Source of the DNA: a virus
Strand: one strand, 5' to 3'
Virus record (IMG/VR): IMGVR_UViG_3300036846_000165
Coordinates: 1-29,672 of that record
DNA length: 29,672 nucleotides
Shown: one piece after another, positions 1-23,049 of the stretch
How the letters are laid out: the number at the start of each line of letters is the position of its first letter
Numbering within the stretch: the first letter of the stretch is position 1
Position numbers and translations under genes: made by a program
Notes under the pieces: generated by a model
What the model was told of the DNA's origin: nothing
Seen by the model: only the letters and a program-made list of their open reading frames with translations
Databases searched by the model: none

Positions 1-1359
1 GCCCGCCTGTACCGCGATGAGCGCCTTCGCGTTATACGTATCGAGCGAGTCGGAGACGCCGAGCGTCGCATTATCGAGCGCGATATTCGCGTCGCGGGTA
101 CCGAGTATCGCGTCGGTCTCGGTCTGCTGCGCCTTCGCGTTCGCGGCTGACGCCTTCGCCGCCGCCTTATCCGCCGCGGTCTGCTGCTGCTGCGCGCCCG
201 TCGCCGTCGTCGCCGCCGCGGTCAGACCATCGGTAACCGTCTTCGCTTCCTTCTGCGCGTCGGTATATGCCTGACGGTCGTCGTATGCCTTGCGCGATTG
301 CGTATCACCCGCGGCGAGATCGTCTGCGTACGCCTGCGTCGCCGCCGAGAGCCGTTTCTGCGCCTCTGCGGCCGTGTTCGTCGACTTACTCGAGTCTTCG
401 ATCTTGCGTCGGAATTCGTCGAGACCGAGCGACAACACGTCAGACGCGACGCGCCCGAGATTGATATGGATAGCGTGCGACGCGGTGTCTAGACCGTTGA
501 GCGCGATGGTCACACCACCCGCGAAATTGGAGAGCACCGGGATCAGCTGATTACCGATCGCGACCTTGAGATCGGTCGTCTCCGCCTTCATTACTGCGAG
601 CTTGCCTGCGTACGTATCGGCGTACTGCGACGCGGCGCCGCCAAAAGCTGCGTTGAGTTTCACGACCGCTTCCGCGGCCGTGATCGTGTGACCGCTCGCG
701 TCTTTCGTCGCGATCCCGAGCTTGTTTAGACCTTTGAGGCGGCCGCCCTCGACCGCGACGAGCAGCGACGTCGCGCCGTCGAGTGTCATATTCCGAGCGC
801 GGGCGACGTCGGTCGCGACGCCGAGCAGCGTTGTCGCCTTCCCGACGTCGTGCGTCACCGGTACGAGCTTGGCGAGCGCGCCCTCCGTATCGGCGGAGCT
901 GAAACCGAGTTTCTCGAGCTTCGAGTCTGCGCCCTCGATCGTGCCGCCTTCGGTCTTCATGGACTCGCCGACGTTGCCGACCACGACCGCGAGCCGCTCG
1001 TGCGCCTTATTGAAATCCTCCGCCGCCTGTATGGACTCGCGCGCGAATTCGACGGCCGCCGCGCCCGCGACGCCCATACCCGCGGTCATCGCGCCGCCGA
1101 TACCGGCGCCCGACGTCACGCCTGCCTGCTCGAGATTGCCGAGCTCGCCTTGCATCTTCTTCGCGGCGCCCGAGAATGGCAGATTGAACGTACCGAGCAG
1201 CTGCCCGACCTTCCCGAAGGCGCCGCCCATCTTCTGCCCGGCGCCCTCGATCTGCTTCCCCGCGCCGCTGACCGCGCTACTCGCGGTCTTCGTCGACCGC
1301 ACGAGCGACGTCGCGTCGCCGATCCACCGCACAGTGAGCGAGCGAATGTCGGTCGCCAT
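1..1359 (-). CDS. Tape measure protein, copy A (3' end beyond window)
   Basis: The tape measure protein spans the tail tube lumen, sets tail length and is ejected ahead of DNA. About 453 codons are present and the reading frame stays open to the left edge, so the C terminus is missing. The start MATDIRSLTVRWIGDATSLVRS matches copy B almost residue for residue. The ATG shares one base with the TAA of the preceding gp10-like gene. The protein is Ala-rich and helical, with a hydrophobic Gly/Ala segment near residues 85-105 (GGAMTAGMGVAG) and long coiled-coil stretches after it. Copy A and B are close at the N terminus and drift in the helical middle. No tail assembly chaperone pair precedes it. 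The family assignment rests on size, composition, gene order and the matching complete copy B. Confidence 0.9.
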   Translation of the reverse strand, partial: MATDIRSLTVRWIGDATSLVRSTKTASSAVSGAGKQIEGAGQKMGGAFGKVGQLLGTFNLPFSGAAKKMQGELGNLEQAGVTSGAGIGGAMTAGMGVAGAAAVEFARESIQAAEDFNKAHERLAVVVGNVGESMKTEGGTIEGADSKLEKLGFSSADTEGALAKLVPVTHDVGKATTLLGVATDVARARNMTLDGATSLLVAVEGGRLKGLNKLGIATKDASGHTITAAEAVVKLNAAFGGAASQYADTYAGKLAVMKAETTDLKVAIGNQLIPVLSNFAGGVTIALNGLDTASHAIHINLGRVASDVLSLGLDEFRRKIEDSSKSTNTAAEAQKRLSAATQAYADDLAAGDTQSRKAYDDRQAYTDAQKEAKTVTDGLTAAATTATGAQQQQTAADKAAAKASAANAKAQQTETDAILGTRDANIALDNATLGVSDSLDTYNAKALIAVQAG

Positions 1360-1829
1360 TACACGACGCCGCCCGTCGCCCAACGCGCGCCGAGCGCGTC
1401 GAGCGCGTGCAGATACTCGAGCGTCGCAGCTGGCCCTTGCGCCCGCAGCGTCGGGAATAGGAAATAGCCGTCGCGGCCGCGGTGCGGCAGAAACTGCATC
1501 GTCTTCGGACTGCCACGGCCGCCGAATTCGGCGCCGAAGATCAGCACGCCGACCGGTGTCTTACGTTTCCCGACGCGCTTCGCGCCGCCGTACAGCAGCG
1601 ACGGCACCCGATCGGAGGTCGTGCGCAGCGACGTCGCCGCGAGCGCGGCTTGCCTGCCGACACTCGCGCCGAGCTGCTGTGCGCCGTCGACGGCGCGCTG
1701 CGCGACGGCACGCGACGCGGTGCGCAGCTCGGCGTTCGCCTCGCTGCCGTACGTGTTGAACGCGCGCAGCAGCGGCGCCAGACCTTCGACGTCGATCGCC
1801 ATAGCCGAGCTGCGGACCGTCGCCGCCAT
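1359..1829 (-). CDS. HK97 gp10-like head-tail/tail completion protein, copy A
   Basis: A 156-residue protein resembling the HK97 gp10 family, small proteins acting at the head-tail joint or tail terminus. The C-terminal half carries the family-like pattern GAEFGGRG...QFLPHRGRDGYFLFPTLR, followed by an Ala-rich helix. The first ATG is chosen because copy B keeps it (MAATVRSSALAIDVEGL), whereas the internal Met10 of copy A is Leu in copy B. No clear Shine-Dalgarno is seen; it starts 4 bases after the major tail gene's TAA, so translation is probably coupled. Its position is unusual: gp10-like genes normally precede the major tail gene, but here it follows and directly abuts the tape measure, where chaperone genes usually sit. 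Family moderately sure, exact role not. Confidence 0.75.
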   Translation of the reverse strand: MAATVRSSAMAIDVEGLAPLLRAFNTYGSEANAELRTASRAVAQRAVDGAQQLGASVGRQAALAATSLRTTSDRVPSLLYGGAKRVGKRKTPVGVLIFGAEFGGRGSPKTMQFLPHRGRDGYFLFPTLRAQGPAATLEYLHALDALGARWATGGVV

Positions 1830-1833
1830 CGGT

Positions 1834-2313
1834 TTACGCGCTCGCTGCTGCAGGCACGCTCGAGCGGCTCGAGCTGCTCGACGCGTCGCTCTCGTCCGCG
1901 GCGAGCGTCGTCATGTATGTCGGCGCGCCGATCAGCGGTAGCGACACAGTGAACACTGCCGCCTGTGCCTGCGTGCCGCCAACCTGACCGGGAACGCAGA
2001 CGACCGTACCGCTCCACGTCGGATTGGTGACGCCTACGGGCGAGTCTTTACAGAGCAGCGTGAACGGCTGCTGTGTCCGCGCATTCGTGAACAGATACAT
2101 GAGCAGATCGGTCGCGCCGTACGCCTGAAATCCGTCGAGATCGAGTGTCCACTTGATATCGCCGGGCAGCTCAGCCGGTCCGCACAGCGAACCGACGTCG
2201 ATCATCGTGATATTCGGCGTCAGCTCCGCCTTCGAGAGTTCGCACGTCACGTCGGTCGGTGTCGATCCGATCGTGACAGTCGGATTGACGAAAATAAACG
2301 CAGGGTTCGCCAT
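1834..2313 (-). CDS. Major tail (tube) protein, copy A
   Basis: A 159-residue protein that most likely polymerises into the tail tube. It begins MANPAFIFVNPTVTIG, and residues 20-110 alternate strand-like segments, typical of small siphovirus tube proteins (DVTCELSKAEL, PGDIKWTLDLDGFQ, LLMYLFTNARTQQPFTLLC). The C-terminal tail is Ser/Ala-rich and low complexity, probably exposed. GGAGG lies 7 bases before the ATG and is part of TAGGAGG, so the previous gene's stop codon overlaps this ribosome site. Copy B encodes a near-identical protein with the same start and differs mainly in the Ser-rich tail. Assignment follows position after the connector genes, size and beta-rich character; no catalytic motif is expected. 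Confidence 0.8.
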   Translation of the reverse strand: MANPAFIFVNPTVTIGSTPTDVTCELSKAELTPNITMIDVGSLCGPAELPGDIKWTLDLDGFQAYGATDLLMYLFTNARTQQPFTLLCKDSPVGVTNPTWSGTVVCVPGQVGGTQAQAAVFTVSLPLIGAPTYMTTLAADESDASSSSSRSSVPAAASA

Positions 2314-2323
2314 CGGTTGCCTC

Positions 2324-2746
2324 CTAAAAGACGATCAGGGTCTCGCAATCTGCGGCCGGGAGCTCTTGAGATCCGCGCAACACGAGCACCGCGGTCGTAC
2401 GCACCGGGCGTACGTCGGTCACGACGCCGCCGAGCGTGCGATCGGCGAGCAACGCCGACGCGTAGACCGTCTGCAGCTCGTCGAGCGCGAGCTGCGCCGG
2501 TCGTTGCGCCTGCGCGCCGACCACGAGCTTGACGATCACGGCCGCGGTCGGCAGCGCCGCATACGCGGTGTCCTCGAACGTGATCGAGAATGCGCCGACG
2601 AGCGCGCACGGCGGCGCCCACGTATCAGCCAGCCACGGCGCGACGCGCAGCGGCGCACCCTCGAAGGTCTGCGCCTCGAGCGCCTGCGTGAGCGCGACGC
2701 GCACCGCCGCGAGGTCGATATCGACGCAGCGGACGGTCGCGCTCAC
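2324..2746 (-). CDS. Tail terminator / head-closure-like protein, copy A
   Basis: A 140-residue protein conserved at the same length in copy B. It starts with GTG overlapping the connector stop (GTGA). The sequence alternates helix (VRVALTQALEAQTFEGAPLRV) and strands (AALPTAAVIVKLVVGA, TTAVLVLRGSQELPAADCETLIVF). This fits the alpha/beta fold of tail terminator proteins that cap the tail tube, or a head-closure protein. Only this gene and the connector lie between capsid and tail tube, so it may carry work normally split between two proteins. I do not recognise a diagnostic motif; the role is inferred from position and size. Confidence 0.6.
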   Translation of the reverse strand: MSATVRCVDIDLAAVRVALTQALEAQTFEGAPLRVAPWLADTWAPPCALVGAFSITFEDTAYAALPTAAVIVKLVVGAQAQRPAQLALDELQTVYASALLADRTLGGVVTDVRPVRTTAVLVLRGSQELPAADCETLIVF

Positions 2747-3339
2747 GAGAGCACCACGTCACGCCACGGCGACTCGAGCGCGTCAATATCGACGTCGAAA
2801 CGCGGGACACGAGCGACGCCGAGATCACCTAACGGAATGATCCCCTCCGGGCTGGCACGCCGGGCGTACAGCCGGGCGCCGCGCTGCTGCGCGGCGAGCA
2901 TCACGTCGTACGGCACCGCGAGTACCGCGCTGCCATCGGCGACGGCCGCGGTCAGCGGTACGTCGAGCGACAGCGACGCGAGCACGACGAGCGCGCCGGT
3001 CGCGTCGGGTGCCTCGAGCGTCGTCGCATACGTGCCTGCGGCGTCGTATACGTGACCGATCGCGGTCTCGCCCGCGGCCGTCGTCGCGTCGGGCATACCG
3101 TCACCGAACGTCCACGTAAACGGTCCGACGCCGTAGCCGTAGGCGTCGAAGACGACGCCGAGCTGCTCGAAGGGTGACGGCTGCGCCCGGTAGAACGTGC
3201 CGCTATACGCGTCGGCGCGCAGGCGTGCGAATTGTTGCGCCTCCACCGCGTCGCAGATCGACTGCAGCAGCGCGTCGTCGATCGTGTCGGTAATCCGCAG
3301 GTACTGCTTCAAGAGATCGAGCGTCAGATACAGACTCAT
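2743..3339 (-). CDS. Head-tail connector (HK97 gp6-like) with inserted PKD/Ig-like domain, copy A
   Basis: A 198-residue protein whose two ends match the 126-residue connector of copy B. The N terminus (LDLLKQYLRITDTIDDALLQ) is the helical start of gp6-type connectors, which form the ring below the portal. The C terminus (ARLYARRASPEGIIPLGDLGVARVPR) is nearly identical between copies. Residues about 62-126 are not aligned with copy B and carry a PKD-type pattern: WTFGDG at 76-81 and HVYDAAGTY at 96-104, followed by a strand. This is an in-frame Ig-like insertion of roughly 72 residues. No Shine-Dalgarno precedes the ATG; a strong hairpin begins 11 bases upstream of it. Connector role well supported by position and copy B; the PKD call rests on the two motifs. 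Confidence 0.8.
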   Translation of the reverse strand: MSLYLTLDLLKQYLRITDTIDDALLQSICDAVEAQQFARLRADAYSGTFYRAQPSPFEQLGVVFDAYGYGVGPFTWTFGDGMPDATTAAGETAIGHVYDAAGTYATTLEAPDATGALVVLASLSLDVPLTAAVADGSAVLAVPYDVMLAAQQRGARLYARRASPEGIIPLGDLGVARVPRFDVDIDALESPWRDVVLS

Positions 3340-3350
3340 CGCGGGTGGCG

Positions 3351-3380
3351 CCCGGCGCCGTGCGCAATTACGGCGCCGGG
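3351..3380 (-). terminator. Strong hairpin between capsid and connector genes, copy A
   Basis: A perfect 11-bp inverted repeat, CCCGGCGCCGT and its complement around an 8-base loop, starts 14 bases after the capsid stop codon and ends 11 bases before the connector ATG. There is no U-run. It may attenuate transcription after the highly expressed capsid gene, stabilise the capsid mRNA, or limit connector translation. Copy B keeps the hairpin and lengthens the stem by one pair with a change on both sides, which supports a structural role. Confidence 0.65.
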
Positions 3381-3394
3381 TACGCCGTGCCTCC

Positions 3395-4786
3395 CTATCT
3401 GCTCGCGCGCGAGCGGCCGCCGCTCACGCCGCCGTCTGCGGGCGTCTCGTCGTCTGCGGTCGGCTCGTCGAGACCTTCGACCTCCGCAACCGCGGGCATC
3501 GTCGTAATCACGATCGACCGGAACGCGCTCGGCGCGGGTGTCGCCGACGCGAAATAGCCGTAGTACGCGACCTGATACCCGAGAATCGACGGCTCGGTAA
3601 TGCTGACGAGACCGCCGATCTGCTCGTAATACTCCGTCGCGCTCGACAGACCGACGATCGCGGTCTTTACGCCTAGGTTGTTGTCGACGATCAGCCGCAG
3701 ACCAAACGGGTTCGCTGCCCATTCGCCCGGCTGCATCGTGCCGTCTGCGTTGATCGGACCGAGCACCGGAAACAACGGCCGCCCTTGCGTGTCGCTCAAC
3801 ATTCCGAGCGCACGCCAGACGTCGGTACTCACCCACAGCGTGTCAGGTAGCCGGTTCGCGGTGCTCGCCGCGATCGACGACGCCGCCGAATAGATCGCAC
3901 CCAACCATGCCGCGGGTTGCGTCGCATCGGCGAGCGCGATCGTCGCCGTGACGGCCGCCTTGAATGCGGTGCACGCCGCGGCGTCGGTCGCGTACGCATA
4001 CTCAGCTGCGAGATCCTCAATTACGATCTGCAGAATTGCCGGGTCGGTCCAGTCGCGATCTTGGAAGCTGATATCGAGCGTGCCGCCGTAGGTGCCCTTG
4101 GTTACCTGCAGCGGGTTGATCGTCATTTTCTGCGACGGCAGCGCGACTTTCTCCGCTGATTGCGGTCCGACCGTTGTGTGTTGCGCGACGACCGGCCGGG
4201 AGAATGTCTTACCGCTCGCAGGCATCGGCCGCGACGCGATCGACCCTAGGAACGGCCGGACGGTCGGCAGAAAGGTAACGACCGGTCCGAGTATCGGCGT
4301 CGGCAGCAGACCGGGCGTATCGCCGGTCGTCTGATCGGCGCGGTCGAGCGCGCGGGCACGCTCGAACCGCTGCCGGGCGCGCTCGGCGTCACGCTCTGAG
4401 CCGTACCCGAGATCGTGACCGTGCGCGATCACGTAGTCCGCGGCGTATTCGCCCGCGCTGCGCCAGATCTCGGTTACCTCGAGCCGTTCAGGTTCGCGCT
4501 CGACGCGCCGGGTGCCTTGCGCCTGCCCGGAACGTGCGAGCGCGCCGTGCACGCGGTTACGGATCTCGTCGCCGCCCGCGCGCGTCTCGAGCAGCTCGGT
4601 CCATTCGGTTGTACTCGACTGCGCGCGCTCGAGCGTCTGCCGGGCGTCGGTCAGCGTCTGCTGCTCGATCTCGGTCGGCTCGCGGTCTTCGTCGTTGAGT
4701 CGTTCAAGAATTCCGTCGATCGTGGCGAGCGCGCCGTCGCGTTGACGCTCGAGGCGCTCGATAAATCCGGGTACGGGCGTAGGCAT
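3395..4786 (-). CDS. Major capsid protein, HK97 fold, copy A
   Basis: A 463-residue HK97-family capsid precursor. Residues 5-80 form a charged helical coiled coil (IERLERQRDGALATIDGILE), the delta/scaffolding region usually removed by the prohead protease encoded just upstream. The shell domain probably begins around residue 155-165 (TPGLLPTPILGPVV) and includes PVVAQHTTVGPQS, LDISFQDRDWTDPAILQIVIEDLAAEYA and a C-terminal YQVAYYGYFAS...FRSIVITT. A longer open frame extends upstream, but the ATG of MPTPVPGF is chosen: GGAGG lies 9 bases before it and copy B starts at the same place. The acidic C-terminal tail (EGLDEPTADDETPADGG) is low complexity. The processing position is inferred. Confidence 0.93.
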   Translation of the reverse strand: MPTPVPGFIERLERQRDGALATIDGILERLNDEDREPTEIEQQTLTDARQTLERAQSSTTEWTELLETRAGGDEIRNRVHGALARSGQAQGTRRVEREPERLEVTEIWRSAGEYAADYVIAHGHDLGYGSERDAERARQRFERARALDRADQTTGDTPGLLPTPILGPVVTFLPTVRPFLGSIASRPMPASGKTFSRPVVAQHTTVGPQSAEKVALPSQKMTINPLQVTKGTYGGTLDISFQDRDWTDPAILQIVIEDLAAEYAYATDAAACTAFKAAVTATIALADATQPAAWLGAIYSAASSIAASTANRLPDTLWVSTDVWRALGMLSDTQGRPLFPVLGPINADGTMQPGEWAANPFGLRLIVDNNLGVKTAIVGLSSATEYYEQIGGLVSITEPSILGYQVAYYGYFASATPAPSAFRSIVITTMPAVAEVEGLDEPTADDETPADGGVSGGRSRASR

Positions 4787-4823
4787 GGTCGTAGACCTCC
4801 GTAACGCAGGGATTGTCTGCGCC

Positions 4824-4894
4824 GGGTGTCTGCGCCTGATCGCCGGGTGTCGCGAGCGCGCCCGCGGGTGTCGACCGTCAGCCGTCAGGGTGTC
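4824..4894. repeat. Four GGGTGTC direct repeats phased at 21-22 bp, copy A
   Basis: GGGTGTC (GACACCC on the coding strand) occurs at 4824, 4845, 4866 and 4888, giving steps of 21, 21 and 22 bases, close to two helical turns. The repeats lie in the protease-capsid gap and reach into the last codons of the protease gene. The same array with the same spacing is present in copy B. Regular phasing suggests a protein-binding array on one DNA face, perhaps controlling capsid expression; an RNA role is also possible. Confidence 0.6.
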
Positions 4895-5486
4895 GGCTAT
4901 CGGGCGTGAGCGTAAGACTGCGCCGCCATTCGGTCCAGTCATTCCGCCAGCTGCGCGCGCGGTCGGCGCCGGGCGTCGAGCTGCTGCGTACTGCGAGCGG
5001 CTCGACGGGCGGATACGCAGGGTCGGGCACGAGCGCGACGTGGAAGAGCTGCCGTACGGTCTGGCGCACGCGCAGCACGCGGCCGTCGCGGCGTAGCTCG
5101 CGGGTGGCGCCCGGCTCGAAGGAGACGCTCAGACCGGGCAGCTGCCCGTCGCGGACCTTGTAGGCGACGAGCGCGGCGTCGGGATGCTCGGCCGGGTCGT
5201 CGAGCCGCCAGCGCCCCCATAGGCCGCGCTCACGCTCGACGAGCTCGAGCGTCTTCCCTACCCACCCTGCGAGGTCGCGGCCGTGCGGGTACCGCAGCTG
5301 CACGACGCGCGGCGCCCGCACGACGTGCCGGAACGAGCCGCGATCGAATTGCTCGAGGTACGGACCGTCGCCGTCGTCGACCTCCGCCGCGACGCCGTAC
5401 GGCACCGCGTACCCGGTCAGCGTGCGGCCGTCGCCGTCGACCTCGAGCGCCGCTTGCCGCACGTAGTGCTCGAGCATCGGTCTCAC
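4878..5486 (-). CDS. Prohead protease (HK97 / S78 family), copy A
   Basis: A 202-residue serine protease predicted to cleave the capsid delta domain during prohead maturation. Family features are the N-terminal GYAVPYG near residues 25-31, DRGSFRHV at 48-55, the candidate catalytic His in LRYPHGR (His68) and the candidate catalytic Ser in LPGLSVSF (Ser120), followed by VALVPDPAYP. The GTG start is preceded by GGGAGG with 5 bases spacing and lies 1 base after the portal stop; an internal ATG three codons later is less well spaced. The C terminus differs from copy B after TLTP through a local frame change and reads into the repeat array. It lies between portal and capsid as usual. Catalytic residues assigned by pattern only. 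Confidence 0.88.
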   Translation of the reverse strand: MRPMLEHYVRQAALEVDGDGRTLTGYAVPYGVAAEVDDGDGPYLEQFDRGSFRHVVRAPRVVQLRYPHGRDLAGWVGKTLELVERERGLWGRWRLDDPAEHPDAALVAYKVRDGQLPGLSVSFEPGATRELRRDGRVLRVRQTVRQLFHVALVPDPAYPPVEPLAVRSSSTPGADRARSWRNDWTEWRRSLTLTPDSRHPDG

Positions 5487-5487
5487 G

Positions 5488-6822
5488 TCAGCCTCCCACG
5501 ATCGACGCGAACGGCAGCACGCCCGAAACCTGCGCGGCGAGCGGCGCCGGTACGCCCGCCGGCGCAGCCGGCGGTACGACGTCAGACGATGCGGTCGTGC
5601 CTGCCTGCGCCGCGGCTAGCTCGTCCGATGCCTGCGGTAGGTCGATCATCGCGCGCGCCTCGTCAAGATCGATCACGCCCGCGCTGTAGAGCGCGATCGC
5701 CTGCGTCGCGCGGTCGTTGACGTCGGGGCGTAATAGTCCGACCGGATCGAACCGTGCGCTTAGGTTGCGCGGCAGTGTCTGCGCGCTCAGCTGCTGCTCG
5801 ACCGGCAGTATGTACCGCTGCACGGTCGTCTCGATGAATTGCTGATTCGCTTGCGTGAGGTTCCGGTAGATCATGCCGGGTGCGTCGAGACCGAGCATGG
5901 TGGCGGGTACGCCGAGCGCGAGCGCGAGCGCCTGATTGTTCCACTTGCGCGCCTCGACGAGCTGCGCCGCCACCGCGTCATTGGGCAGCACCGTAATTTT
6001 CGTGCCCATCGGCGTTACGACCGGCTCGCGCGACCCTGCGACCGACGCGAGAAATTTCGATTTGAGGTCGTCGGCTTGTGTCTGCGTGAGGTCCGGGTTC
6101 GGGTGCTCGACGTGCACGCTCGGTACCGCGCCGGTCTGGAAATACCGCGCCGCGAACCGTTCCGCCATGACTGCCGCGGCGACGAGATCCGAATTGCCGG
6201 TCAGCAGACCGCGGCCGATCAGCTCACCGGTCCCGCGGTTGATCGCGACGTGGAAGATCTCGCTCGGGTCGTAGTCGTCGCCGCCGATGCGGTAGATAAC
6301 GCGGCCTTGCTCGACGACGATCGCCCACCATCCTGCGCGGATCGGATACATGACGCGCGGCCAACCATCCCACCCGAGATCGCCGAGCACCGCGACGTAG
6401 TTCCCCCAGAGGCCTAGATCGCGTATCACCTCGTCTTCCCAATCGGCGAGCGTGAGACCGGTCGCGCGCGGGTCACCGGTCGGCGCGCGCAGGATGGGCG
6501 GAGTCGGTACGACCGGCTGCGCGGGTACCTGCGTCTCGTCGAGCGCCTGCAGCGGCATCTGCACGACGAACGCGGAGATCAGCGACAGCGACGCCGAGAC
6601 CGAAGGGATCGCGAGCACCTCAGACTCTGAGATCGGATACAGCGGCGCGCTCGAGGTGCCCATGCTCGGCGGTACGCCGCCTGCGCCGCCGTATACGCCG
6701 GCTGCGATCGCCGCCCAGAGCATCTCGAGGCCGCCTGCGCCGCCGATCGGCAGCGTCGGCGCGGCTGCGACCTGCGCGCGGGTATCCGGCAAGGGTGGCG
6801 GTTTCGCACGCCACAGTCGCAC
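5488..6822 (-). CDS. Portal protein (HK97-type), copy A
   Basis: A 444-residue portal subunit; twelve form the ring through which DNA enters and leaves the capsid. Recognisable portal-family stretches include LADWEDEVIRDLGLWGNYVAVLGD, GWPRVMYPIRAGWWA, GDDYDPSEIFHVAINRGTGELIGRG, the long helix before VPSVHVEHPNPDLT, and WNNQALALALGVPATMLGLDAPGMIYRNLTQANQQFIE with the crown-side helix after it. The frame is open six codons further to a TTG, but the GTG before RLWRAKPPPLP is preferred because copy B has an ATG at exactly this residue and because it ends the 12-bp inverted repeat. No Shine-Dalgarno is visible, consistent with leaderless translation. In copy A it directly follows the divergent control region; in copy B two extra genes intervene. 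Confidence 0.92.
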   Translation of the reverse strand: MRLWRAKPPPLPDTRAQVAAAPTLPIGGAGGLEMLWAAIAAGVYGGAGGVPPSMGTSSAPLYPISESEVLAIPSVSASLSLISAFVVQMPLQALDETQVPAQPVVPTPPILRAPTGDPRATGLTLADWEDEVIRDLGLWGNYVAVLGDLGWDGWPRVMYPIRAGWWAIVVEQGRVIYRIGGDDYDPSEIFHVAINRGTGELIGRGLLTGNSDLVAAAVMAERFAARYFQTGAVPSVHVEHPNPDLTQTQADDLKSKFLASVAGSREPVVTPMGTKITVLPNDAVAAQLVEARKWNNQALALALGVPATMLGLDAPGMIYRNLTQANQQFIETTVQRYILPVEQQLSAQTLPRNLSARFDPVGLLRPDVNDRATQAIALYSAGVIDLDEARAMIDLPQASDELAAAQAGTTASSDVVPPAAPAGVPAPLAAQVSGVLPFASIVGG

Positions 6823-6902
6823 GCCCGGAGTTTTCCACAACTAGTCCCCAGACGCCTAGTCACTAGTCGCAGGGTGCCGAGCCGTGCGATACTCCGGGCG
6901 TG
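6820..6902. promoter_or_regulatory. Divergent control region with 12-bp inverted repeat, copy A
   Basis: CACGCCCGGAGT at 6820-6831 and its exact complement at 6891-6902 bound this region, and each arm ends in a GTG start codon: portal on the minus strand, the coiled-coil gene on the plus strand. On the plus strand GATACT at 6888-6893 lies 7 bases before its GTG, with TAGTCG 18 bases upstream, giving a leaderless promoter. Three CTAGTC repeats (6841, 6856, 6863) and TTTTCCACA, one mismatch from a DnaA box, lie between the arms. The stretch from the left arm through the last CTAGTC is identical in copy B. The binding protein is unknown. Confidence 0.6.
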
Positions 6903-7061
6903 AGCACCCCGGTCGACCCGGACGAGAAACAAGACGAGCTGCAGGCACGAGCCGCGGCGCTGCGCGCGCAGGCGGCCGACCTCGAGGCGCAAGCCGCGCA
7001 CGCAGACGCCGACGCGGCGCAGCTCGACGTCGGCGCACCCGATAGCGACGTCGGCGACTGA
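6900..7061 (+). CDS. Small coiled-coil protein on the opposite strand, copy A
   Basis: A 53-residue acidic, Ala-rich protein, MSTPVDPDEKQDELQARAAA..., one of very few plus-strand genes. Leu14, Leu21 and Leu28 are spaced by seven, giving a coiled-coil helix over about residues 10-42, followed by an acidic tail. Coding is supported by comparison with copy B: apart from a three-base Lys-to-Arg change and TGA versus TAG, every difference is a silent third-base change. The GTG start appears leaderless, 7 bases after GATACT. It converges with terL, whose stop codon is one base away. Function unknown; a moron-type or regulatory/packaging partner is possible. Confidence 0.8.
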   Translation: MSTPVDPDEKQDELQARAAALRAQAADLEAQAAHADADAAQLDVGAPDSDVGD

Positions 7062-7062
7062 G

Positions 7063-8502
7063 CTAGTAGGCGGTCCAGCTCGCGACGCGGCCGCGGACGT
7101 CGGTCGCCGCGAACCGTGCAACCGTGATCGCACCTAACGGGCAGATATCCGCAAGCGAACGGCGCGCCCATACCCAGACGTCGCCGATCGTGCGCCGGCG
7201 CGCCGCGGTCACTGCGTCGTCGAGCACGAGCTGCGTGCGGTGCACGAGCCGGGTCGCGGTTACGTCGTCGTACAGCCCGGCGCAGGCGTGGGCGTAGTCG
7301 CGGCCGCCGACGACGACGACCGGTACCTGCACGGCCGCCTCGAGGTCGCGTGCGAGCGCGCCCGCGGGTCCGCCCGGATCGAGCGCGACGCAGCGGGAGC
7401 GGTGCTGCGCGGCGAGTTGCGCGACGCGGGGCACGAGCCAATCGACGCCCGGCCGGTGCTCGACGATCTCGACGTGCACCCGGCCGTCGCCCCGCACCGC
7501 GCACGCTGCGATCGCGCCCCGATGCCGCTCCGGTGTCACGTCGACACCCCAGCTGATCGACGTGCCCTCGTCGATCGTCGACGCGTCGTCGACGCACGCC
7601 GCCCACGCCTCGAGCGGTATCGCCTGCGCCACGATCTCAGACGGTCGCGGCCAGACATTCAGGTACGACCGCTCGAATTCGGCGGTCGAGGTTTTCGTCG
7701 CCCACAGCACCGCGAGCTCGTCCTCGCGGAATCCGTACCCGAGCGAAGGGTGCGACGCCCGCCACACCGCCGGGTCGGCCGGGTCGTAATCGGCTGCCTG
7801 ATCGTCAGCGGACCACTCGAAATAGGCGACGCCTTGCGCGCCTTGCCGCCCTAACGTCATCCACCGATCCAGCCACGTTGACTCGACCGTGCCGCCCGCG
7901 GACACGATCCACAGCTGCCGCCACGGCCGCGTGAGCTGCGCCGGGCGTGCCGCGGCCTCGAGCGCGTCGCCTTGCAGCGTGTCGAACGCCCACGCCTCGT
8001 CGAAGACGACGAGATCGGCATTGTGACCGTGCAGCGCGGTCTCGGTCGGAGGGAAAATCTGCAGGCGCGACGACCCGCGCCGCGCCCAAACGCCCTCTTT
8101 CCCGGCGCCGCGATACAGCCGAAATTGCGAATCGAGCAGGTCGCTCGACGTGATCGCGGGCACCCACTCGTCGCGGAACGTGCGCGCCGCGTCTTCGCGT
8201 CGCTGCGCCGTGTACCAGGCGCGCAGGTCACGCTGCCGTCGAGCGCCCGCCAGCCCGCGCGCCAGCGTGAGCAGTGTCTTCCCCGCACGGCGCGGCACGA
8301 CGAGCACGACGATCGGATACGCGTACCCGACGCCTGACTCGTCGATCTCGCCGCTGACGTCGCCGACGAGACGCTGCCAGGGATACGGGCGGCCGCCGTT
8401 GCGCAGCAGCGCCAGAAACGTCGCGACCTCGAGCCCGACCGTCGCCCGGTCGCTATTCCTGCTCGTCGCGAAGCGAGGCAGACAAACGGGCAAACGCGGC
8501 AT
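7063..8502 (-). CDS. terL: Terminase large subunit, copy A
   Basis: A 479-residue packaging motor. The N-terminal ATPase shows the P-loop VPRRAGKT at about 69-76, Walker B DLVVFDEA at 163-170 and the coupling motif VSAGGT at 200-205. The C-terminal nuclease has the expected acidic residues in WGVDVTPERH (Asp321), VALDPGG (Asp375) and VLDDAV (Asp429). ATP hydrolysis drives DNA into the prohead through the portal and the nuclease cuts concatemers. The frame extends further 5', but the ATG (MPRLPVCLPRF) is conserved in copy B and has GGTGAGG about 10 bases before it; it overlaps the end of terS by 50 bases. Length and both domains are complete. Confidence 0.95.
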   Translation of the reverse strand: MPRLPVCLPRFATSRNSDRATVGLEVATFLALLRNGGRPYPWQRLVGDVSGEIDESGVGYAYPIVVLVVPRRAGKTLLTLARGLAGARRQRDLRAWYTAQRREDAARTFRDEWVPAITSSDLLDSQFRLYRGAGKEGVWARRGSSRLQIFPPTETALHGHNADLVVFDEAWAFDTLQGDALEAAARPAQLTRPWRQLWIVSAGGTVESTWLDRWMTLGRQGAQGVAYFEWSADDQAADYDPADPAVWRASHPSLGYGFREDELAVLWATKTSTAEFERSYLNVWPRPSEIVAQAIPLEAWAACVDDASTIDEGTSISWGVDVTPERHRGAIAACAVRGDGRVHVEIVEHRPGVDWLVPRVAQLAAQHRSRCVALDPGGPAGALARDLEAAVQVPVVVVGGRDYAHACAGLYDDVTATRLVHRTQLVLDDAVTAARRRTIGDVWVWARRSLADICPLGAITVARFAATDVRGRVASWTAY

Positions 8503-8752
8503 CCCACGAATCCTCACCGGTCGGCGCGACCGGTCCGCCACGCAGCTGCTCGAGCACCGCCGCCAGCCGCCCCGCCAGCGTCGCCGTGATGTACCGACTG
8601 CCGCCCGGCTCGGCGTGCTCGTCGTCGATCTCATCCGCCAACGTGCGAGCGAGACCGATCAGCGCCTCGTCGACCCGCTCGAGCCGCCCAGCACGCCGCA
8701 GCGCCCGCACGGTCACGTCCAAAGAGCGTCGCACGCGACGTACGCCTGCCAC
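8453..8752 (-). CDS. terS: Terminase small subunit, copy A
   Basis: A 99-residue helical protein in the position of the small terminase, the subunit that recognises the packaging site and hands DNA to TerL. The sequence VRRSLDVTVRALRRAGRLERVDEALIGLARTLADEIDDE and the helix TATLAGRLAAVLEQLRG resemble the short small-terminase-type proteins of actinophages. The basic N terminus (MAGVRRVRR) could bind DNA. The GTG start is shared with copy B and no Shine-Dalgarno is seen. The gene overlaps the terL start by 50 bases. The invariant block upstream is a natural candidate for its target. No definitive motif, so the call depends on gene order. Confidence 0.72.
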   Translation of the reverse strand: MAGVRRVRRSLDVTVRALRRAGRLERVDEALIGLARTLADEIDDEHAEPGGSRYITATLAGRLAAVLEQLRGGPVAPTGEDSWDAAFARLSASLRDEQE

Positions 8753-8826
8753 GGTCAGAGCGTGACAGATCGAGCCAGAGCGCCGCTAGCGGCCGTCTGG
8801 CGCTTCGAGGGTCCACGCGGCGCCGT

Positions 8827-8933
8827 GGAGAGAAACGTTGGCGGACGACGATCAAGCGCGGCACCCCGCCCCAAAAAACGCGCCGTCGGCTGCAGCCGCC
8901 CGAGCTGCGCGCTGGCACGCCGTCTGCCGCGCC
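8827..8933. other. Nearly invariant 107-bp block upstream of terS, copy A (candidate cos/pac)
   Basis: These 107 bases match copy B (29566-29672) with one difference, at 8837, whereas I counted nine differences in 120 bases inside terS (8461-8580). The block holds CCCCGCCCCAAAAAACG and, just outside it to the left, a GCGCC...GGCGC inverted repeat in both copies. It lies in the 240-base gap between the small basic protein gene and terS, the usual place of the terminase recognition site. A plus-strand frame starting TTG at 8838 with GGAGAGA before it is open for 72 codons, but lacks synonymous variation, so DNA-level constraint is preferred. Confidence 0.5.
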
Positions 8934-8992
8934 CGGCAGTGCCGGATTGCCGGTACCGCGTTTGGTTCTACTTGTTGGCAGCGCCAGCGGTG

Positions 8993-9238
8993 CTACTTGT
9001 GGCGGCCGAGCTTGCCGCCTGTACGTGCGTGCGCGACTTTCGCCATCTTGGCGTAGCTGCCGCCTGTCTTGCGTTGCGCGGCTCGGCTCAGCGCGTTGCG
9101 GTGCGTGCGCATCCGTTGTGCTTCGCTGATCCCGGCGCGTCGTGCTTGCGCCTTCGTCGGCATCGGGTAGGCGCGTCGGCTCGGGATCGCGAAGGCTGAG
9201 CGCGGGAGCGCGGCGCGTTGCCGTGCGGTTAGTGCCAT
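8993..9238 (-). CDS. Small basic phage protein, DUF6582-like N terminus
   Basis: An 81-residue, strongly basic protein. Its start, LTARQRAALPRSAFAIPSRRAYPMPT, resembles the short conserved motif (LPxSAFAIPxxRxYPxP) of DUF6582-type proteins common in actinophage and actinobacterial genomes, whose function is not established. The C-terminal half is rich in Arg, Lys and His (TGGSYAKMAKVAHARTGGKLGRHK) and could bind nucleic acid. The ATG is preferred over an upstream in-frame GTG because GGTGAGG precedes it by about 9 bases. It lies between the HNH nuclease and the gap before terS, so a packaging-associated role is possible. Family resemblance is from the N-terminal motif only. Confidence 0.65.
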   Translation of the reverse strand: MALTARQRAALPRSAFAIPSRRAYPMPTKAQARRAGISEAQRMRTHRNALSRAAQRKTGGSYAKMAKVAHARTGGKLGRHK

Positions 9239-12216: not shown

Positions 12217-12383
12217 CGGTCGCCTTCGGGTCGGGTGACGTCGCCGAGCGCCTGCTGGTGGTCGTGCCACGCCACGAGGTCCGCCCAGGCGTCGTCGCCG
12301 CGGTGGCGGTGCCGGGCGCCGACGATGAGCACGACGACGACGAGAGCGACGGCTAGGGCAGCGAGAACGAGCGCGAGCGTCAT
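12213..12383 (-). CDS. Small single-span membrane protein
   Basis: A 56-residue protein with an N-terminal membrane segment (MTLALVLAALAVALVVVVLIVG, residues 1-22) followed by a basic stop-transfer stretch (ARHRHRGDD) and a soluble tail (AWADLVAWHDHQQALGDVTRPEGDR), predicted N-out, C-in. Its ATG overlaps the RecT stop (ATGA) and its stop overlaps the next gene's GTG, so it belongs to the same operon. It is between RecT and the TPGPW protein; a role in superinfection exclusion or membrane attachment of early proteins is possible but not shown. Confidence 0.65.
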   Translation of the reverse strand: MTLALVLAALAVALVVVVLIVGARHRHRGDDAWADLVAWHDHQQALGDVTRPEGDR

Positions 12384-13381
12384 ACCGGCAACGTGCCCGG
12401 CTCGTCGGGCGGTGCGGGCGCCTGCTCGGTCTCGTCGTGCGCGTATGGCGGCGCGGGCTCGAGGTGCTCGAGATAGTCGATCACCCGGTCAGCCTCGATC
12501 TCGGTCAGCTCTTTCGACGTCGTGACCGTGCGGCCGATGATCTCGCACGCGAGCGCGAGCCGGTCCGCGCGGTCGCCGATACCGCGAGTCCGCATAAGTG
12601 ACTGCAGGCGGCGCAGCTGCCGCGGTTCGATCAGCTGCGCCGCCTGCTCGTCGTCGCGGGTCGCGTCCGCTAGGTCGACCGCCGCGACGTCGGTCTCGCC
12701 GGGTAGTGGCGGCAGCTCGGGCGCCGTCCCCGGACCGGGGTCAGGTGCCACGACTGCCGCCGCTACCGCTCGCCGACGCGACCGAGTGGTACGCGGCGCG
12801 GGCGTCGCCGCGCTCGAGGTCGCGCCGTCGAGACCGTCGTCGCCGTCGTATTCCTCGATCGCGCCGAGACCGTGTATCGCGTCGGCGAAGATGGCGCGGC
12901 ACAGCTCCGCCGACGCGCGGGCGCTCAGCATTTGTTCGGGGTAGCTGCGCCAATTGGGTTTGCCGTCGAGCCGTGCCCGGCGGGCGCGGTCCATCGTCCA
13001 GACGATGCGCGTCACCTTCTGTCCGCCGGCGCGTACGCCTGCCCAGCAGGCGCGCACGCTCGTCGATTCCTCGAGCACGATCTCGTGCCCGGCGCGCAGC
13101 ACGAGCGCCCGCTGCGCCTCCGCCGCGATAAAGACTCGACCCTCGATCACGAATATCTGATTGACCGCGACGAGCGGTCCGAGTCCGATTTCGTCGCCGT
13201 ACAGGATCGCGGCGGTGATCGCGGGCGGGTTGTTGCGGTAATTGCGCGGCACGAAATCGGTCGGCGCGATCGTGCGTGCCAGCTCCGCCGCGGGTGCGAG
13301 CAGGTCGATCCACCCGCGCGCGCTCGGGAGCTGTACGCCTGCGCGCGCGGGCGGGTCGGCGACACGCACAAGCGCCGTCAC
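12380..13381 (-). CDS. recT: RecT-family single-strand annealing protein
   Basis: A 333-residue RecT-type annealing protein. The conserved core runs from about residue 25 to 185: helices around LAPAAELARTIAPTDFVPRNYRNNPPAITAAILYGDEIGLGPL, then the beta-rich VNQIFVIEGRVFIAAEAQRALVLRAGHEIV and the C-terminal core RSYPEQMLSARASAELCRAIFADAIHGLG, typical of RecT proteins. Residues 190-245 are a flexible Ala/Pro/Thr linker, and residues 250-333 carry a charged helical extension (RQLRRLQSLMRTRGIGDR...) that may bind a partner. It acts with the adjacent exonuclease in phage recombination: the exonuclease resects, RecT anneals. GTG start overlaps the exonuclease stop (GTGA), showing coupling. Confidence 0.88.
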   Translation of the reverse strand: MTALVRVADPPARAGVQLPSARGWIDLLAPAAELARTIAPTDFVPRNYRNNPPAITAAILYGDEIGLGPLVAVNQIFVIEGRVFIAAEAQRALVLRAGHEIVLEESTSVRACWAGVRAGGQKVTRIVWTMDRARRARLDGKPNWRSYPEQMLSARASAELCRAIFADAIHGLGAIEEYDGDDGLDGATSSAATPAPRTTRSRRRAVAAAVVAPDPGPGTAPELPPLPGETDVAAVDLADATRDDEQAAQLIEPRQLRRLQSLMRTRGIGDRADRLALACEIIGRTVTTSKELTEIEADRVIDYLEHLEPAPPYAHDETEQAPAPPDEPGTLPV

Positions 13382-18031: not shown

Positions 18032-19306
18032 CTATCCGAGCCGCACGAGATCGAGCTGCGAATTGTTCGGGTCGTCGAGAATGAACGGCGCGAAACCCGC
18101 CGTCGATGAGAGCGCGTAGGTGACGGTCCAGCTCACCCGGTCGAGTGTCACCGCCCAGCCGCGCACGAGCGCGTCGGTCGAGATCGCGACCGGGTGCACG
18201 GCCGGGTCGACGTCGACGTGCCAGCGGTCGAGATACGCGGTCGCGAGCACGATCGGCCACAGGTGCGCCGGGTCGACCTGCGGCGTGACCGTCAGCGCGT
18301 CGACACGACGAAACGGCACGCTTGAGGTCTGCAGCACGAGCGACGCCCACGCCTGCACGTCGCCGTCGGTATCGAGCGCGAGATCGTTCCGCCCCCAGCG
18401 GTGCGGCAGATACTTAGAAACCGACGCGCCGTCGCGTGCGGTCTGCTGCGTGCCACTCGGCCGTGCCGCGTCGACGATGTTCTTGAGCAGGGTGTCATCG
18501 CTCGCGGTGACGACGTCCTCGTAGCGGAGCTGGGAGGCGCCCGGACCCCAATCCGCGACCGGCGCCGCGGACGAGACGATCGCGCCCATAACCGTCTCGC
18601 GGGTCCGGAACGTCGCCGCACCTGACGGCGCGATAAACACGGCGCCGAGCTCGGAGTCGTTCACTAATAGCAGCTCGGTCCACGCGTCATTGGCGAGCGT
18701 CGTCGCGGCCATGATCCGCCCGCCCGCCTGCAGGTCACGGGCGCCGGTCCACTCCGCCTCGGTCAGTATCCGGTCGACGCGCTGGCTCGCGGTGTCACCT
18801 TCGCCGAGCGGCGACTGCGCGGGCGCGTTGTACGCGGAGAGCAGCGCGGTCGCGTCGGTCGACTGCAGCGTGACCGTGCAGTCGAGCGTGTGCGGGTCGA
18901 AGGCGAGCAGGTACGCGTTCACGTACCCGGTAAACAACGGCACCCACGCGCCCACGGTCGGCTGCACGATGCGCGCCTGCACGTCGAGACCGATCATCGG
19001 CACGAGCGGCGTATCGTCGCCACCGATCGGATACTGCGCGTCATTGTTATCGAGCACGACCGTCGCCGACGCGGCTTCCCAGCGGGTCAGCACGCCATCG
19101 GTCCGCGTCGCGCCCCACCGGTACGCGACCTGCCGGACGTCGCACGTCACGTCGACGTACGGCGCCGTAGGCGAGCCGAGCACCGCGTAGTCGAGCTGGC
19201 TGAATGTCGGATCGTCGAGCGTGAACGTCGGGTCGGCGCCACTGCTCGACCCGATCGCGAGCTGCACGCGGACCTCGACCCAATCGGACCACAGCGCGTC
19301 GATCAC
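18032..19306 (-). CDS. Minor tail / tail-tip protein
   Basis: A 424-residue protein placed after the tape measure, the site of tail-tip (Dit/hub-type) proteins. It has alternating strands with segments typical of siphovirus tail-tip proteins: DVTCDVRQVAYRWG, ASATVVLDNNDAQYPIGGDDTPLVPMIGLDVQARI, and PLFTGYVNAYLLAFDPHTLDCTVTLQSTDATALLSAY. A 15-residue motif LDDPxxSQLDxxxLG occurs near the N terminus (30-44) and again as the last 15 residues (410-424). The GTG start overlaps the tape measure stop (GTGA). Hub, distal tail or other role cannot be separated by inspection. Confidence 0.75.
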   Translation of the reverse strand: MIDALWSDWVEVRVQLAIGSSSGADPTFTLDDPTFSQLDYAVLGSPTAPYVDVTCDVRQVAYRWGATRTDGVLTRWEAASATVVLDNNDAQYPIGGDDTPLVPMIGLDVQARIVQPTVGAWVPLFTGYVNAYLLAFDPHTLDCTVTLQSTDATALLSAYNAPAQSPLGEGDTASQRVDRILTEAEWTGARDLQAGGRIMAATTLANDAWTELLLVNDSELGAVFIAPSGAATFRTRETVMGAIVSSAAPVADWGPGASQLRYEDVVTASDDTLLKNIVDAARPSGTQQTARDGASVSKYLPHRWGRNDLALDTDGDVQAWASLVLQTSSVPFRRVDALTVTPQVDPAHLWPIVLATAYLDRWHVDVDPAVHPVAISTDALVRGWAVTLDRVSWTVTYALSSTAGFAPFILDDPNNSQLDLVRLG

Positions 19307-21252
19307 GCCGCACCGCGCCAGCTCGAGCCGTTGCGACGCTCGTAGGCGCGGATCGCGTCGACGACCGCCTTACCGGTCGCGGCCGGATCAGCGCCCGGCG
19401 CCACGTTGACCGTAATGCTGTAGTTATTGCCGCCACCGCGCCGCTGCTCGGGTGTCAGTACCTCTTCGCCGCCGTGCACGATCGCCGGTACCGGCGCGCC
19501 GACCGGACCGGGCACGACGCCGCCGTGCTGAAAGAGGCGCACGCTGCCGGGCGTGTTGACCGATTGCGTCGACGGGTGAAACACGATCGCGCCCGCAGGT
19601 CCGCTCGCGATGATCTGCGCGTGAAACGTCTCGGTCCGCGGTGCCGCCGCCCGGTCGAGCTGCGCGATCAGCTGATCGAGATACGACCGGAACGGATTAC
19701 CGGGCGCGATCGTGCCGCGCAGCTTCTCGAGCGCGCCCCGCTCGGCGTCGGTCTCGTGCGCGACGCTGTGCGCCTTCCCCCGCAGATCATCCTGCTGATC
19801 CGCCGCCGCCTTCGCCGACGACGCCACGCCGTCGATCGAGCCCTTGACGTCGTTGCTCGCCTTCTCCCAATCGCGGTTAGCTTGCGCGTTCTTGCCGCCC
19901 GCCTGTACCGCGATGAGCGCCTTCGCGTTATACGTATCGAGCGAGTCGGAGACGCCGAGCGTCGCATTATCGAGCGCGATATTCGCGTCGCGGGTACCGA
20001 GTATCGCGTCGGTCTCGGTCTGCAGCGCCTTCGCGTGCGCCTGCGATTCTTTCGTCGCGGCTTTCTCGGCTGCGGTCTGCTGCTGCTGCGCGCCGGTCGC
20101 GGTTGTCGCCGCCGCGGTCAGCCCATCCGTTATCGCCTTCGCCTTCGCCTGCTCGGTATTGAGCGCCTTTCGGTCGTCGTATGCCTTGCGCGACGTCGTG
20201 TCACCCGCGGCGAGATCATCGGCGTATGCCTGCTGCGCCGCCGCGAGCTTCTTGGTGACGTCCGCGGCGGTGTTCTGCGCCTTCGAGTCGGCCTCGATCT
20301 TGCGTCGGAATTCGTCGAGACCGAGCGAGAGCACGTCGGACGCGACCCGCGAGAAATTGACGTGCATATGTTTCGACGCGGTGTCTAGACCGTTGAGCGC
20401 GATCGTGGCACCACCCGCGAAATTGGAGAGGATCGGGATCAGCTGATTCCCGAGCGCGACCTTGAGATCGGTCGTCTCCGCCTTCATCACTGCGAGCTTG
20501 CCTGCGTAGCTATCGGCGTAGGTTGACGCGGCGCCGCCGAATGCCTGATTGAGTTTCACGACCGCTTCCGCGGCCGTGATCGTGTGACCTGACGCGTCTT
20601 TCGTCGCGATCCCGAGCTTGTTCAGACCCTTGAGGCGGCCGCCCTCGACCGCGACGAGCAGACCGGTCGCCTCGTCGAGCGACATATTGCGGGCGCGGGC
20701 GATATCGGTCGCGACGCCGAGCAGCGTCGACGCCTTCCCGACGTCGTGCGTCACCGGTACGAGCTTCGCGAGCGCGCCCTCCGTCTCGGTCGAGCTGAAA
20801 CCGAGCTTCTCGAGCCTGCTATCCGCGCCCTGAATTTTGCCGCCCTCAGTCGTCATACTCTCGCCGACGTTGCCGACCACGACCGCGAGACGCTCGTGCG
20901 CCTTGTTGAAATCCTCCGCCGCCTGGATCGCCTCGCGGCCGAATTCGATCGCGGCTGCGCCCGCGACGCCCATACCCGCGGTCATCGCGCCGCCGATACC
21001 GCTACCGCTCGTGACGCCCGCCTGCTCGAGATTGGACAGCTCGCCTTGCATCTTCTTCGCGCTGCCGCTAAAGGGCAGATTGAACGTACCGAGCACCTGT
21101 CCGAGCTTGCCGAACGTGCCGCCCATCTTCGAGCCCGCGGTCTCGATCCCTTTCCCGGTCTGCTTCACCGCGGATTCTGCGGCCTTCGTCGACCGGACGA
21201 GCGACGTCACGTCGCCGATCCACTTGACGGTGAGCGACCGGACGTCTGCCAT
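19303..21252 (-). CDS. Tape measure protein, copy B
   Basis: A complete 649-residue tape measure protein. A short N-terminal region (ADVRSLTVKWIGDVTSLVRSTKAAESAVKQ) is followed by a hydrophobic Gly/Ala segment near 88-105 and long Ala/Lys/Glu-rich coiled coils at about 300-510. The C terminus from about 593 has HGGEEVLTPEQRR...NYSITVNVAPGADPAATGKAVVDAIRAYERRNGSSW, the common closing motif of siphovirus tape measures. At the usual 1.5 angstrom per residue it would imply a tail near 100 nm. The ATG is one base after the gp10-like stop. The frame is open further upstream, but copy A starts at the same residue. It is short for the class and lacks a peptidase or lysozyme domain. Confidence 0.92.
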   Translation of the reverse strand: MADVRSLTVKWIGDVTSLVRSTKAAESAVKQTGKGIETAGSKMGGTFGKLGQVLGTFNLPFSGSAKKMQGELSNLEQAGVTSGSGIGGAMTAGMGVAGAAAIEFGREAIQAAEDFNKAHERLAVVVGNVGESMTTEGGKIQGADSRLEKLGFSSTETEGALAKLVPVTHDVGKASTLLGVATDIARARNMSLDEATGLLVAVEGGRLKGLNKLGIATKDASGHTITAAEAVVKLNQAFGGAASTYADSYAGKLAVMKAETTDLKVALGNQLIPILSNFAGGATIALNGLDTASKHMHVNFSRVASDVLSLGLDEFRRKIEADSKAQNTAADVTKKLAAAQQAYADDLAAGDTTSRKAYDDRKALNTEQAKAKAITDGLTAAATTATGAQQQQTAAEKAATKESQAHAKALQTETDAILGTRDANIALDNATLGVSDSLDTYNAKALIAVQAGGKNAQANRDWEKASNDVKGSIDGVASSAKAAADQQDDLRGKAHSVAHETDAERGALEKLRGTIAPGNPFRSYLDQLIAQLDRAAAPRTETFHAQIIASGPAGAIVFHPSTQSVNTPGSVRLFQHGGVVPGPVGAPVPAIVHGGEEVLTPEQRRGGGNNYSITVNVAPGADPAATGKAVVDAIRAYERRNGSSWRGAA

Positions 21253-21253
21253 C

Positions 21254-21718
21254 TCAGCCGCCCGCCGCCCAGCGCGCGCCGAGATCGTCGAGCGCGGCGA
21301 GCCATACCGCGGTGGCGGCGTGCCCTTGCGCACGCAGCGTCGGGAACAGGAAATAGCCGTCGCGGCCGCGGTGCGGCAAGAATTGTTGCGTCGTCGGCTG
21401 CCCGCGGCCGCCGAATTCGGCGCCGAAGATCAGCGTGCCGACCGGTGTCTTACGTTTCCCGACGCGTTTCGCGCCGCCGTAGATCAGCGCCGGTACGCGA
21501 TCCGACGTCGTGCGCAGCGACGTCGCCGCCAGCGCCGCCTGCCGGCCGATACTCGCGCCGCGCGTCTGCGCCCCGTCAACTGCGTACTGCGCGACCTTCC
21601 GCGACGCGGTGCGTAGCTCGGCGTTAGCTTCGCGGCCGTAGTTGTTGAAGGCGCGCAGCAGCGGCGCCAGACCTTCGACGTCGATCGCGAGCGCCGAGCT
21701 GCGGACGGTCGCCGCCAT
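21254..21718 (-). CDS. HK97 gp10-like head-tail/tail completion protein, copy B
   Basis: A 154-residue equivalent of the copy A gene, with the same MAATVRSSA...IDVEGLAPLLRAF start and the GAEFGGRGQPTTQQFLPHRGRDGYFLFPTLRAQG block. Changes cluster in the C-terminal helix. It lies 6 bases after the major tail gene and one base before the tape measure ATG, so again no room exists for a tail chaperone gene. Role at the tail end or head-tail joint is inferred from the family resemblance. Confidence 0.75.
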   Translation of the reverse strand: MAATVRSSALAIDVEGLAPLLRAFNNYGREANAELRTASRKVAQYAVDGAQTRGASIGRQAALAATSLRTTSDRVPALIYGGAKRVGKRKTPVGTLIFGAEFGGRGQPTTQQFLPHRGRDGYFLFPTLRAQGHAATAVWLAALDDLGARWAAGG

Positions 21719-21724
21719 TCGGGT

Positions 21725-22195
21725 TTACGCGGTCGCTGCTGCAGGGGCGCTCGAGCGGCTCGAGCTGCTGCTCTCGTCCGCGGCGAGAGTGATCGACGGT
21801 ACCGGGTCGCCGATCAGCGGCAGCGACGCCGTGAACACTGCCGCTTGTGCCTGCGTGCCGCCGACCTGACCGGGCACACACACGACCGTACCCGCCCAGC
21901 TCGGATTCGTCGCTGACACTGCCTCGTCTTTGCAGACGAGCGTGAACGGCTGCTGCGTCCGCCGATTCGTGAACAGATACATCAGCAGGTCGGTCGTCGC
22001 GTACGCCTGGAATCCGTCGAGATCGAGTGTCCATTTGATATCGCCGGGCAGCTCCGCCGGTCCGCACAGGCTGCCGACGTCGATCATCGTGATGTTCGGC
22101 GTCAGCTCCGCCTTGCTCAGCTCGCACGTCACGTCGGTACCGGGCGTGCCGAGCGTGACGGTCGGATTGACGAAAATAAACGCGGGGTTCGCCAT
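21725..22195 (-). CDS. Major tail (tube) protein, copy B
   Basis: A 156-residue tube protein matching copy A through ANPAFIFVNPTVTLG, ELSKAELTPNITMIDVGSLCGPAELPGDIKWTLDLDGFQ and PGQVGGTQAQAAVFTASLPLIG. The two differ mainly in surface loops such as CKDEAVSATNPSWAG and in the Ser/Ala-rich C-terminal tail. The ribosome site GGAAGG lies about 8 bases before the ATG and overlaps the stop of the previous gene (TAGGAAGG). Confidence 0.8.
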   Translation of the reverse strand: MANPAFIFVNPTVTLGTPGTDVTCELSKAELTPNITMIDVGSLCGPAELPGDIKWTLDLDGFQAYATTDLLMYLFTNRRTQQPFTLVCKDEAVSATNPSWAGTVVCVPGQVGGTQAQAAVFTASLPLIGDPVPSITLAADESSSSSRSSAPAAATA

Positions 22196-22207
22196 CGGGT
22201 GTCCTTC

Positions 22208-23007: not shown

Positions 23008-23018
23008 ATCGGGTGGCG

Positions 23019-23049
23019 CCCGGCGCCGTCGCGCAATGACGGCGCCGGG
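23019..23049 (-). terminator. Strong hairpin between capsid and connector genes, copy B
   Basis: A perfect 12-bp inverted repeat, CCCGGCGCCGTC and its complement, with loop GCGCAAT. Compared with copy A, one C is gained on the left and one G on the right, adding a base pair rather than breaking the stem, while the loop stays similar. It occupies the same interval between capsid stop and connector start. No U-run. Likely attenuator or mRNA-stability element. Confidence 0.68.

Follow-up and report, generated by a model that had tools for sequence, protein, structure and literature searches.

A 53-codon gene opposing the late operon, between terL and portal, in two diverged late regions of a probable actinophage

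Genes oriented against a late operon are a frequent site of prophage-expressed functions such as superinfection exclusion and host modification, and genes as short as 53 codons are easily overlooked by annotation. Among described systems, the phage morons, known from lambdoid and other phages, are cassettes of one gene that lie between two genes lacking them in close relatives, have their own promoter and a terminator downstream, are expressed from the repressed prophage, and usually, but not strictly, differ in composition from their neighbors (definition as in PMC4378225). In Actinobacteria, it is common for genes to be leaderless, with a -10 box located some 12 bp ahead of the start codon (PMC3160421, PMC3898074).

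The gene described here, referred to as the microgene, resembles the morons in being a lone small gene whose two flanking genes stand without it in a close relative and in having an orientation independent of the operon and possibly a promoter of its own. It differs from them in that no terminator was found after it in a simple scan of positions 6600–7300, which would miss terminators without T-runs, in that its codon usage is typical of the phage and gives no mark of recent acquisition, and in that its start region is a palindrome common to the divergent late gene. With no terminator found and no foreign composition, the microgene is not formally filed as a moron; the comparisons presented below argue for a real, lineage-specific, anti-oriented accessory gene that would be moron-like in its working.

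The window and the terL-portal slot

The window, the whole 29.7-kb virus record that was analyzed, has a G+C content of 69.6% and contains one phage late region as two diverged copies about 20 kb apart on the same contig, at positions 1–9000 (copy A) and 19300–29672 (copy B), with nucleotide identities of about 75–90% depending on the gene. The late genes are on the minus strand in the order terS, terL, portal, protease, capsid, and tail genes. A single integrase gene lies between the copies together with a gene that we take, from reading its sequence, to be endolysin-like; two late regions with one integrase between them would correspond either to two related phages integrated as prophages in tandem or to a chimeric assembly. 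The best matches of TerL, at ~33–35% identity, are small actinophages of Rhodococcus, Gordonia, and Arthrobacter, and the source is a small temperate phage, probably an actinophage. Two genes, one LtfC-like and one collagen-repeat/C1q-like, are present in copy B only, and in that copy the leader of the microgene adjoins the start of the LtfC-like gene in place of portal. The features discussed are collected in Table I.

Table I. Coordinates in the window of the microgene, its neighbors, and the elements of its leader
Feature	Position	Strand	Remarks
Microgene, copy A	6900–7061	+	53 aa, GTG start, TGA stop
Microgene, copy B	27665–27826	+	53 aa, K10R, GTG start, TAG stop
terL, copy A	7063–8499	-	phrog_9, E 6e-53; convergent with microgene
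portal, copy A	5488–6822	-	Phage_portal, E 7e-42; divergent from microgene
Two extra copy-B genes (LtfC-like beta-sandwich; collagen/C1q-like)	26495–27588	-	Between palindrome and portal
Near-palindrome, copy A	6820–6902		83 bp, portal GTG to microgene GTG, center 6861
Palindrome, copy B	27586–27667		LtfC-like gene GTG to microgene GTG; 19-nt outer arms 84% complementary
Extended -10-like TGC GATACT	6885–6893 (copy B, 27650–27658)	+	Ends 6 nt before microgene GTG
Mirror extended -10-like TGG AAAACT	6829–6837	-	Ends 6 nt before portal GTG
Mirror extended -10-like box, copy B	27595–27603	-	Before LtfC-like gene
CTAGTC repeats at 6841, 6856, and 6863	6840–6868		Include two ACTAGT palindromes 22 bp apart; candidate operator

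As described in an earlier sequence-only reading, the same 53-residue frame is present in both copies, on the strand opposite to the late operon and in the slot between terL and portal. The copy A peptide is MSTPVDPDEKQDELQARAAALRAQAADLEAQAAHADADAAQLDVGAPDSDVGD, and the copy B peptide is identical except at residue 10. The microgene and terL are arranged tail-to-tail; their stop codons are separated by a single base (7062) in copy A and overlap in copy B, in the CTAG at 27823–27826 that the reading had pointed out. The exchange of stop codon that it also listed is real (TGA versus TAG) but arises from a 5-bp indel (TGAGC) and not from a base swap.

The gene had further been called conserved, which is correct for the two copies on this contig but does not extend to the collections searched or to the nearest relative. 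No homologue of the microprotein was found outside the contig among viral contigs, genome contigs, phages, and plasmids. A search of genome contigs with terL gave no relative, and a search of viral contigs with portal gave only contig L003 and one distant match. L003 is the closest relative, with terL and portal 85 and 78% identical, and the microgene is absent from it without trace; its terL-portal slot is occupied by an unrelated 35-codon sense ORF (2871–2978) that reads as a membrane peptide. Because of this absence, the microgene is not a core packaging regulator of the phage group, and the role as a regulator of packaging suggested by the sequence-only reading is possible but unsupported.

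Small ORFs are also found in this slot in other phages. In eight related contigs (L003, L011, L014, L016, L017, and L020–L022), terL is followed by a sense ORF of 35–68 residues, unannotated in the collections searched, with the appearance of a single-span membrane peptide, and the slots of Decurro, EricDab, and RRH1 contain other small ORFs. The microgene shares the slot with these and is of similar size, but they are in the sense direction and most of those on contigs are hydrophobic and membrane-like, whereas the microgene is antisense and its product acidic and helical; no sequence similarity between them was found. The terL-portal slot is a variable accessory site.

Coding evidence and the product

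The comparison that bears on coding is between two homologous sequences, both on one contig. The peptides differ by the single Lys/Arg change noticed before, in a codon that differs at all three bases (AAA/CGT). Nine silent codons had been counted, of which eight are sense codons and the ninth is the stop codon; the silent divergence itself is real. By the Nei-Gojobori method, dS is 0.25 and dN 0.021, giving a dN/dS of 0.084, as compared with 0.078 for terL, 0.154 for portal, and up to 0.47 for other genes. When the 11 observed base changes were redistributed at random, one or fewer amino acid changes resulted in none of 200,000 trials, and in 3 of 200,000 when the Lys/Arg codon was held fixed. 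The codon-usage score of the microgene is +20.7 in one copy and +20.6 in the other, with a mean of 15.9 for true genes and means of -2 to -25 for wrong frames. A greedy gene call by codon usage over the whole window picks the microgene in both copies and gives no other convincing plus-strand gene; the one further plus-strand pick, at 29375–29548 and antisense to terS, scores 8.2. The coding signature claimed for the microgene is thus seen in its divergence pattern, in the randomizations, and in its codon usage, and because the divergence is biased to silent sites, the randomizations rarely reproduce it, and the codon usage is phage-like, we conclude with high confidence from these comparisons that the microgene is a real protein-coding gene.

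Long spurious ORFs are numerous in GC-rich DNA, and the frame might be one of these, kept open by something on the other strand. However, the divergence, randomization, codon-usage, and gene-call tests all disfavor such a chance frame, and each of the remaining five frames either differs by 8–10 replacement codons or is interrupted by stops in one copy; the next best of them, an antisense frame, scores 9–13 for codon usage yet has eight replacement codons. A chance origin is therefore extremely unlikely.

The stop-to-stop convergence and the lack of an identified terminator mean that plus-strand transcription could enter terL, and the transcript might act as an antisense RNA on the terL mRNA with the ORF being secondary. 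Against this, the microgene has changed at its silent sites at a rate close to that of terL (8 of 40 versus 111 of 383; Fisher p 0.27) while replacements are suppressed, a codon-periodic pattern that an RNA function does not predict. The silent-site divergence indicates that it is the peptide, rather than the RNA, that is selected, and on this ground antisense RNA is rejected as the main function; we regard the idea as very improbable. The pattern of substitutions shows the frame to be kept by purifying selection on its peptide in both of the diverged copies.

The microprotein has a mass of 5.4 kDa and a pI of 4.05, with 13 acidic and 3 basic residues, no cysteine, and no aromatic residues. 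The heptad pattern reported previously is present, with Leu14, Leu21, Leu28, and Leu42 at d positions and Ala18, Ala25, Ala32, and Ala39 at a positions, so that hydrophobic a/d heptads of the kind that define a coiled coil extend over four to five heptads of a helix. AlphaFold predicts for the monomer one confident helix, residues 7–44, with pLDDT values up to 96. The only family found in a Pfam search is DUF6381 (PF19908), a weak likeness over 27 residues of the helix (E 0.1); membership is rejected because its 12.8 bits fall far below the cut-off of 26.6, at noise level, and the same model also gives sub-cut-off matches in 10 of 14 control genomes. The only PHROGs matches have E values of 0.25 and 0.68, and NCBIfam gave no match. 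Profile and PDB searches revealed neither a helix-turn-helix nor any other DNA-binding match; the PDB matches that were obtained (RNA polymerase beta' and designed coiled coils, best E 0.09) are attributable to helix composition and were discarded as noise.

The start-to-start palindrome

An addition to the earlier observations is that the interval between the microgene and the divergent late gene is a near-palindrome that ends precisely with their start codons, in copy A the portal GTG (6822–6820, minus strand) and the microgene GTG (6900–6902, plus strand). It is the top-ranked inverted repeat of the window, with 41-nt arms that are 71% complementary and separated by one base, and its outer stem is a perfect 12 bp. 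Two other inverted repeats were observed elsewhere in the window: a near-perfect 28-bp palindrome (GCCAGAGCGCCGCTAGCGGCCGTCTGGC) at 8774–8801, immediately ahead of the copy A terS, that may be a control site of the late operon, and an inverted repeat with perfectly matched 16-bp arms and a loop of 12 nt at 12604–12647, inside a coding region (12380–13381) that is presumably RecT-like, as judged by reading.

The leaders of copies A and B have only four differences in the 77 nt between the start codons, three substitutions and one 1-bp indel, as compared with about 22 expected at the silent-site rate of terL (P ≤ 9e-7; for up to five differences, below 1e-6). Because silent sites of the microgene drift while the leader is nearly frozen, the peptide and the leader are both under selection, as separate objects. 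A search of Rfam gave no match, and exact matches to leader patterns in three viral contigs (L037, L038, and L039) were dismissed as unrelated chance matches.

Read outward, both arms of the palindrome have the form TGN-(G/A)A(T/A)ACT-CCGGGC-GTG. They are alike at 17 of 22 positions in copy A and at 16 of 22 in copy B, and 14 matches in the 19 upstream positions are reached by random pairs of GTG codons in 0.026% of draws. The promoter that the sequence-only reading assigned to the microgene is plausible but has only partial backing: a simple sigma-70 scan finds nothing and no clear -35 element is seen, but the extended -10-like TGC-GATACT precedes its GTG in both copies. The same kind of -10-like arm also faces in the opposite direction, toward portal; the motif TGN-NANANT at 5–7 nt before an ATG or GTG occurs at only four sites in the window, which are the microgene boxes of the two copies and their two mirror images. 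No Shine-Dalgarno sequence precedes the microgene GTG, whereas sites of the AGGAGG or GGAGG type precede capsid and other genes. In lacking a Shine-Dalgarno and in placing a -10-like box some 12 bp ahead of the GTG, the arrangement TGC GATACT CCGGGC GTG thus resembles leaderless actinobacterial genes, in which 6–7 nt separate box and start codon, but the box begins with G and is not of the form TANNNT. Given this spacing and the missing Shine-Dalgarno, divergent leaderless promoters are plausible on sequence grounds; leaderless initiation is here assumed from the kin of the phage.

The near-frozen leader could instead reflect an RNA structure. It is possible, but rather unlikely, that a hairpin in the late-strand RNA at the terL/portal boundary is the main selected intergenic feature and that the microgene is a passenger at its edge; the hairpin might serve as a terminator, a processing site, or a translation lock on the portal GTG, roles that are compatible with a moron-like microgene. 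The late-strand RNA has a predicted fold of -48.4 kcal/mol (z -4.6) with the portal GTG included in the stem, and the RNA folds computed for the element span -47 to -48 kcal/mol with z -4.6 to -5.7. An unrelated 14-bp hairpin (z -4.5) is found in the same slot of L003 (2983–3027) and an 11-bp hairpin (z -4.2) between orf3 and portal of Rhodococcus phage RRH1 (L033:2334–2369), and hairpins may thus be a recurrent feature of this boundary, in sequences that are mutually unrelated. However, none of the three is followed by a T-run, those of L003 and RRH1 are located away from a start codon, and no hairpin above chance was found in 11 other relatives tested. The differences between copies A and B are, moreover, all in one arm and none in the other, so that no change is compensatory. 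Divergent leaderless promoters and an RNA hairpin are both possible, and we make no firm choice between them.

The center of the palindrome raises a further alternative, corresponding to the regulator of packaging proposed earlier: a switch in which occupancy of the palindromic CTAGTC block, by the microprotein or by a phage repressor, sets transcription of the late head genes against that of the plus strand. The mirror-image -10-like arms at its two sides, the conservation of the leader, and the presence of the paired ACTAGT palindromes despite a scarcity of CTAG in the window (27 observed versus about 83 expected, a three-fold depletion) are consistent with such a switch, and ACTAGTC occurs in the window only in the two leader intervals and at the copy B stop. 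On the other hand, the peptide is acidic and lacks DNA-binding matches, L003 does not have the arrangement, and CTAGTC is at no other promoter of the window, unlike what would be expected of a phage-wide repressor site. We therefore consider the switch quite unlikely. The fullest form of the idea, in which the 83-bp palindrome would be a symmetric divergent promoter-operator giving leaderless mRNAs in both directions, with the microprotein helping to set the terminase/head-gene switch, is speculative and improbable.

Proposed expression and action of the microprotein

The reading that we favor, and hold to be rather likely, is that the microgene is a moron-like, anti-oriented accessory gene that encodes an acidic helix with Ala/Leu heptads and is expressed apart from the late operon. 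Its transcript would start at or beside the GTG, from the extended -10 in one arm of the 83-bp palindromic interval that it has in common with the divergent late gene, and its product could be made while the late operon is silent. Expression independent of the late operon is likely, and expression in the lysogen is a reasonable guess. The acidic helix may act through protein-protein contact, either by self-pairing or by engaging a partner helix, and may do so in the lysogen or at an early stage of infection.

The coding evidence for the microgene is unusually clear for only two sequences, and a palindrome that spans exactly from start codon to start codon is an uncommon arrangement. The locus provides an example of how, in a tiny gene, selection on the peptide can be told from selection on an RNA or a promoter, even if no function comes to be assigned to it. 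Should the symmetric divergent promoter-operator prove true, with the microprotein taking part in its switch, the locus would be a decision module of minimal size within the late operon.
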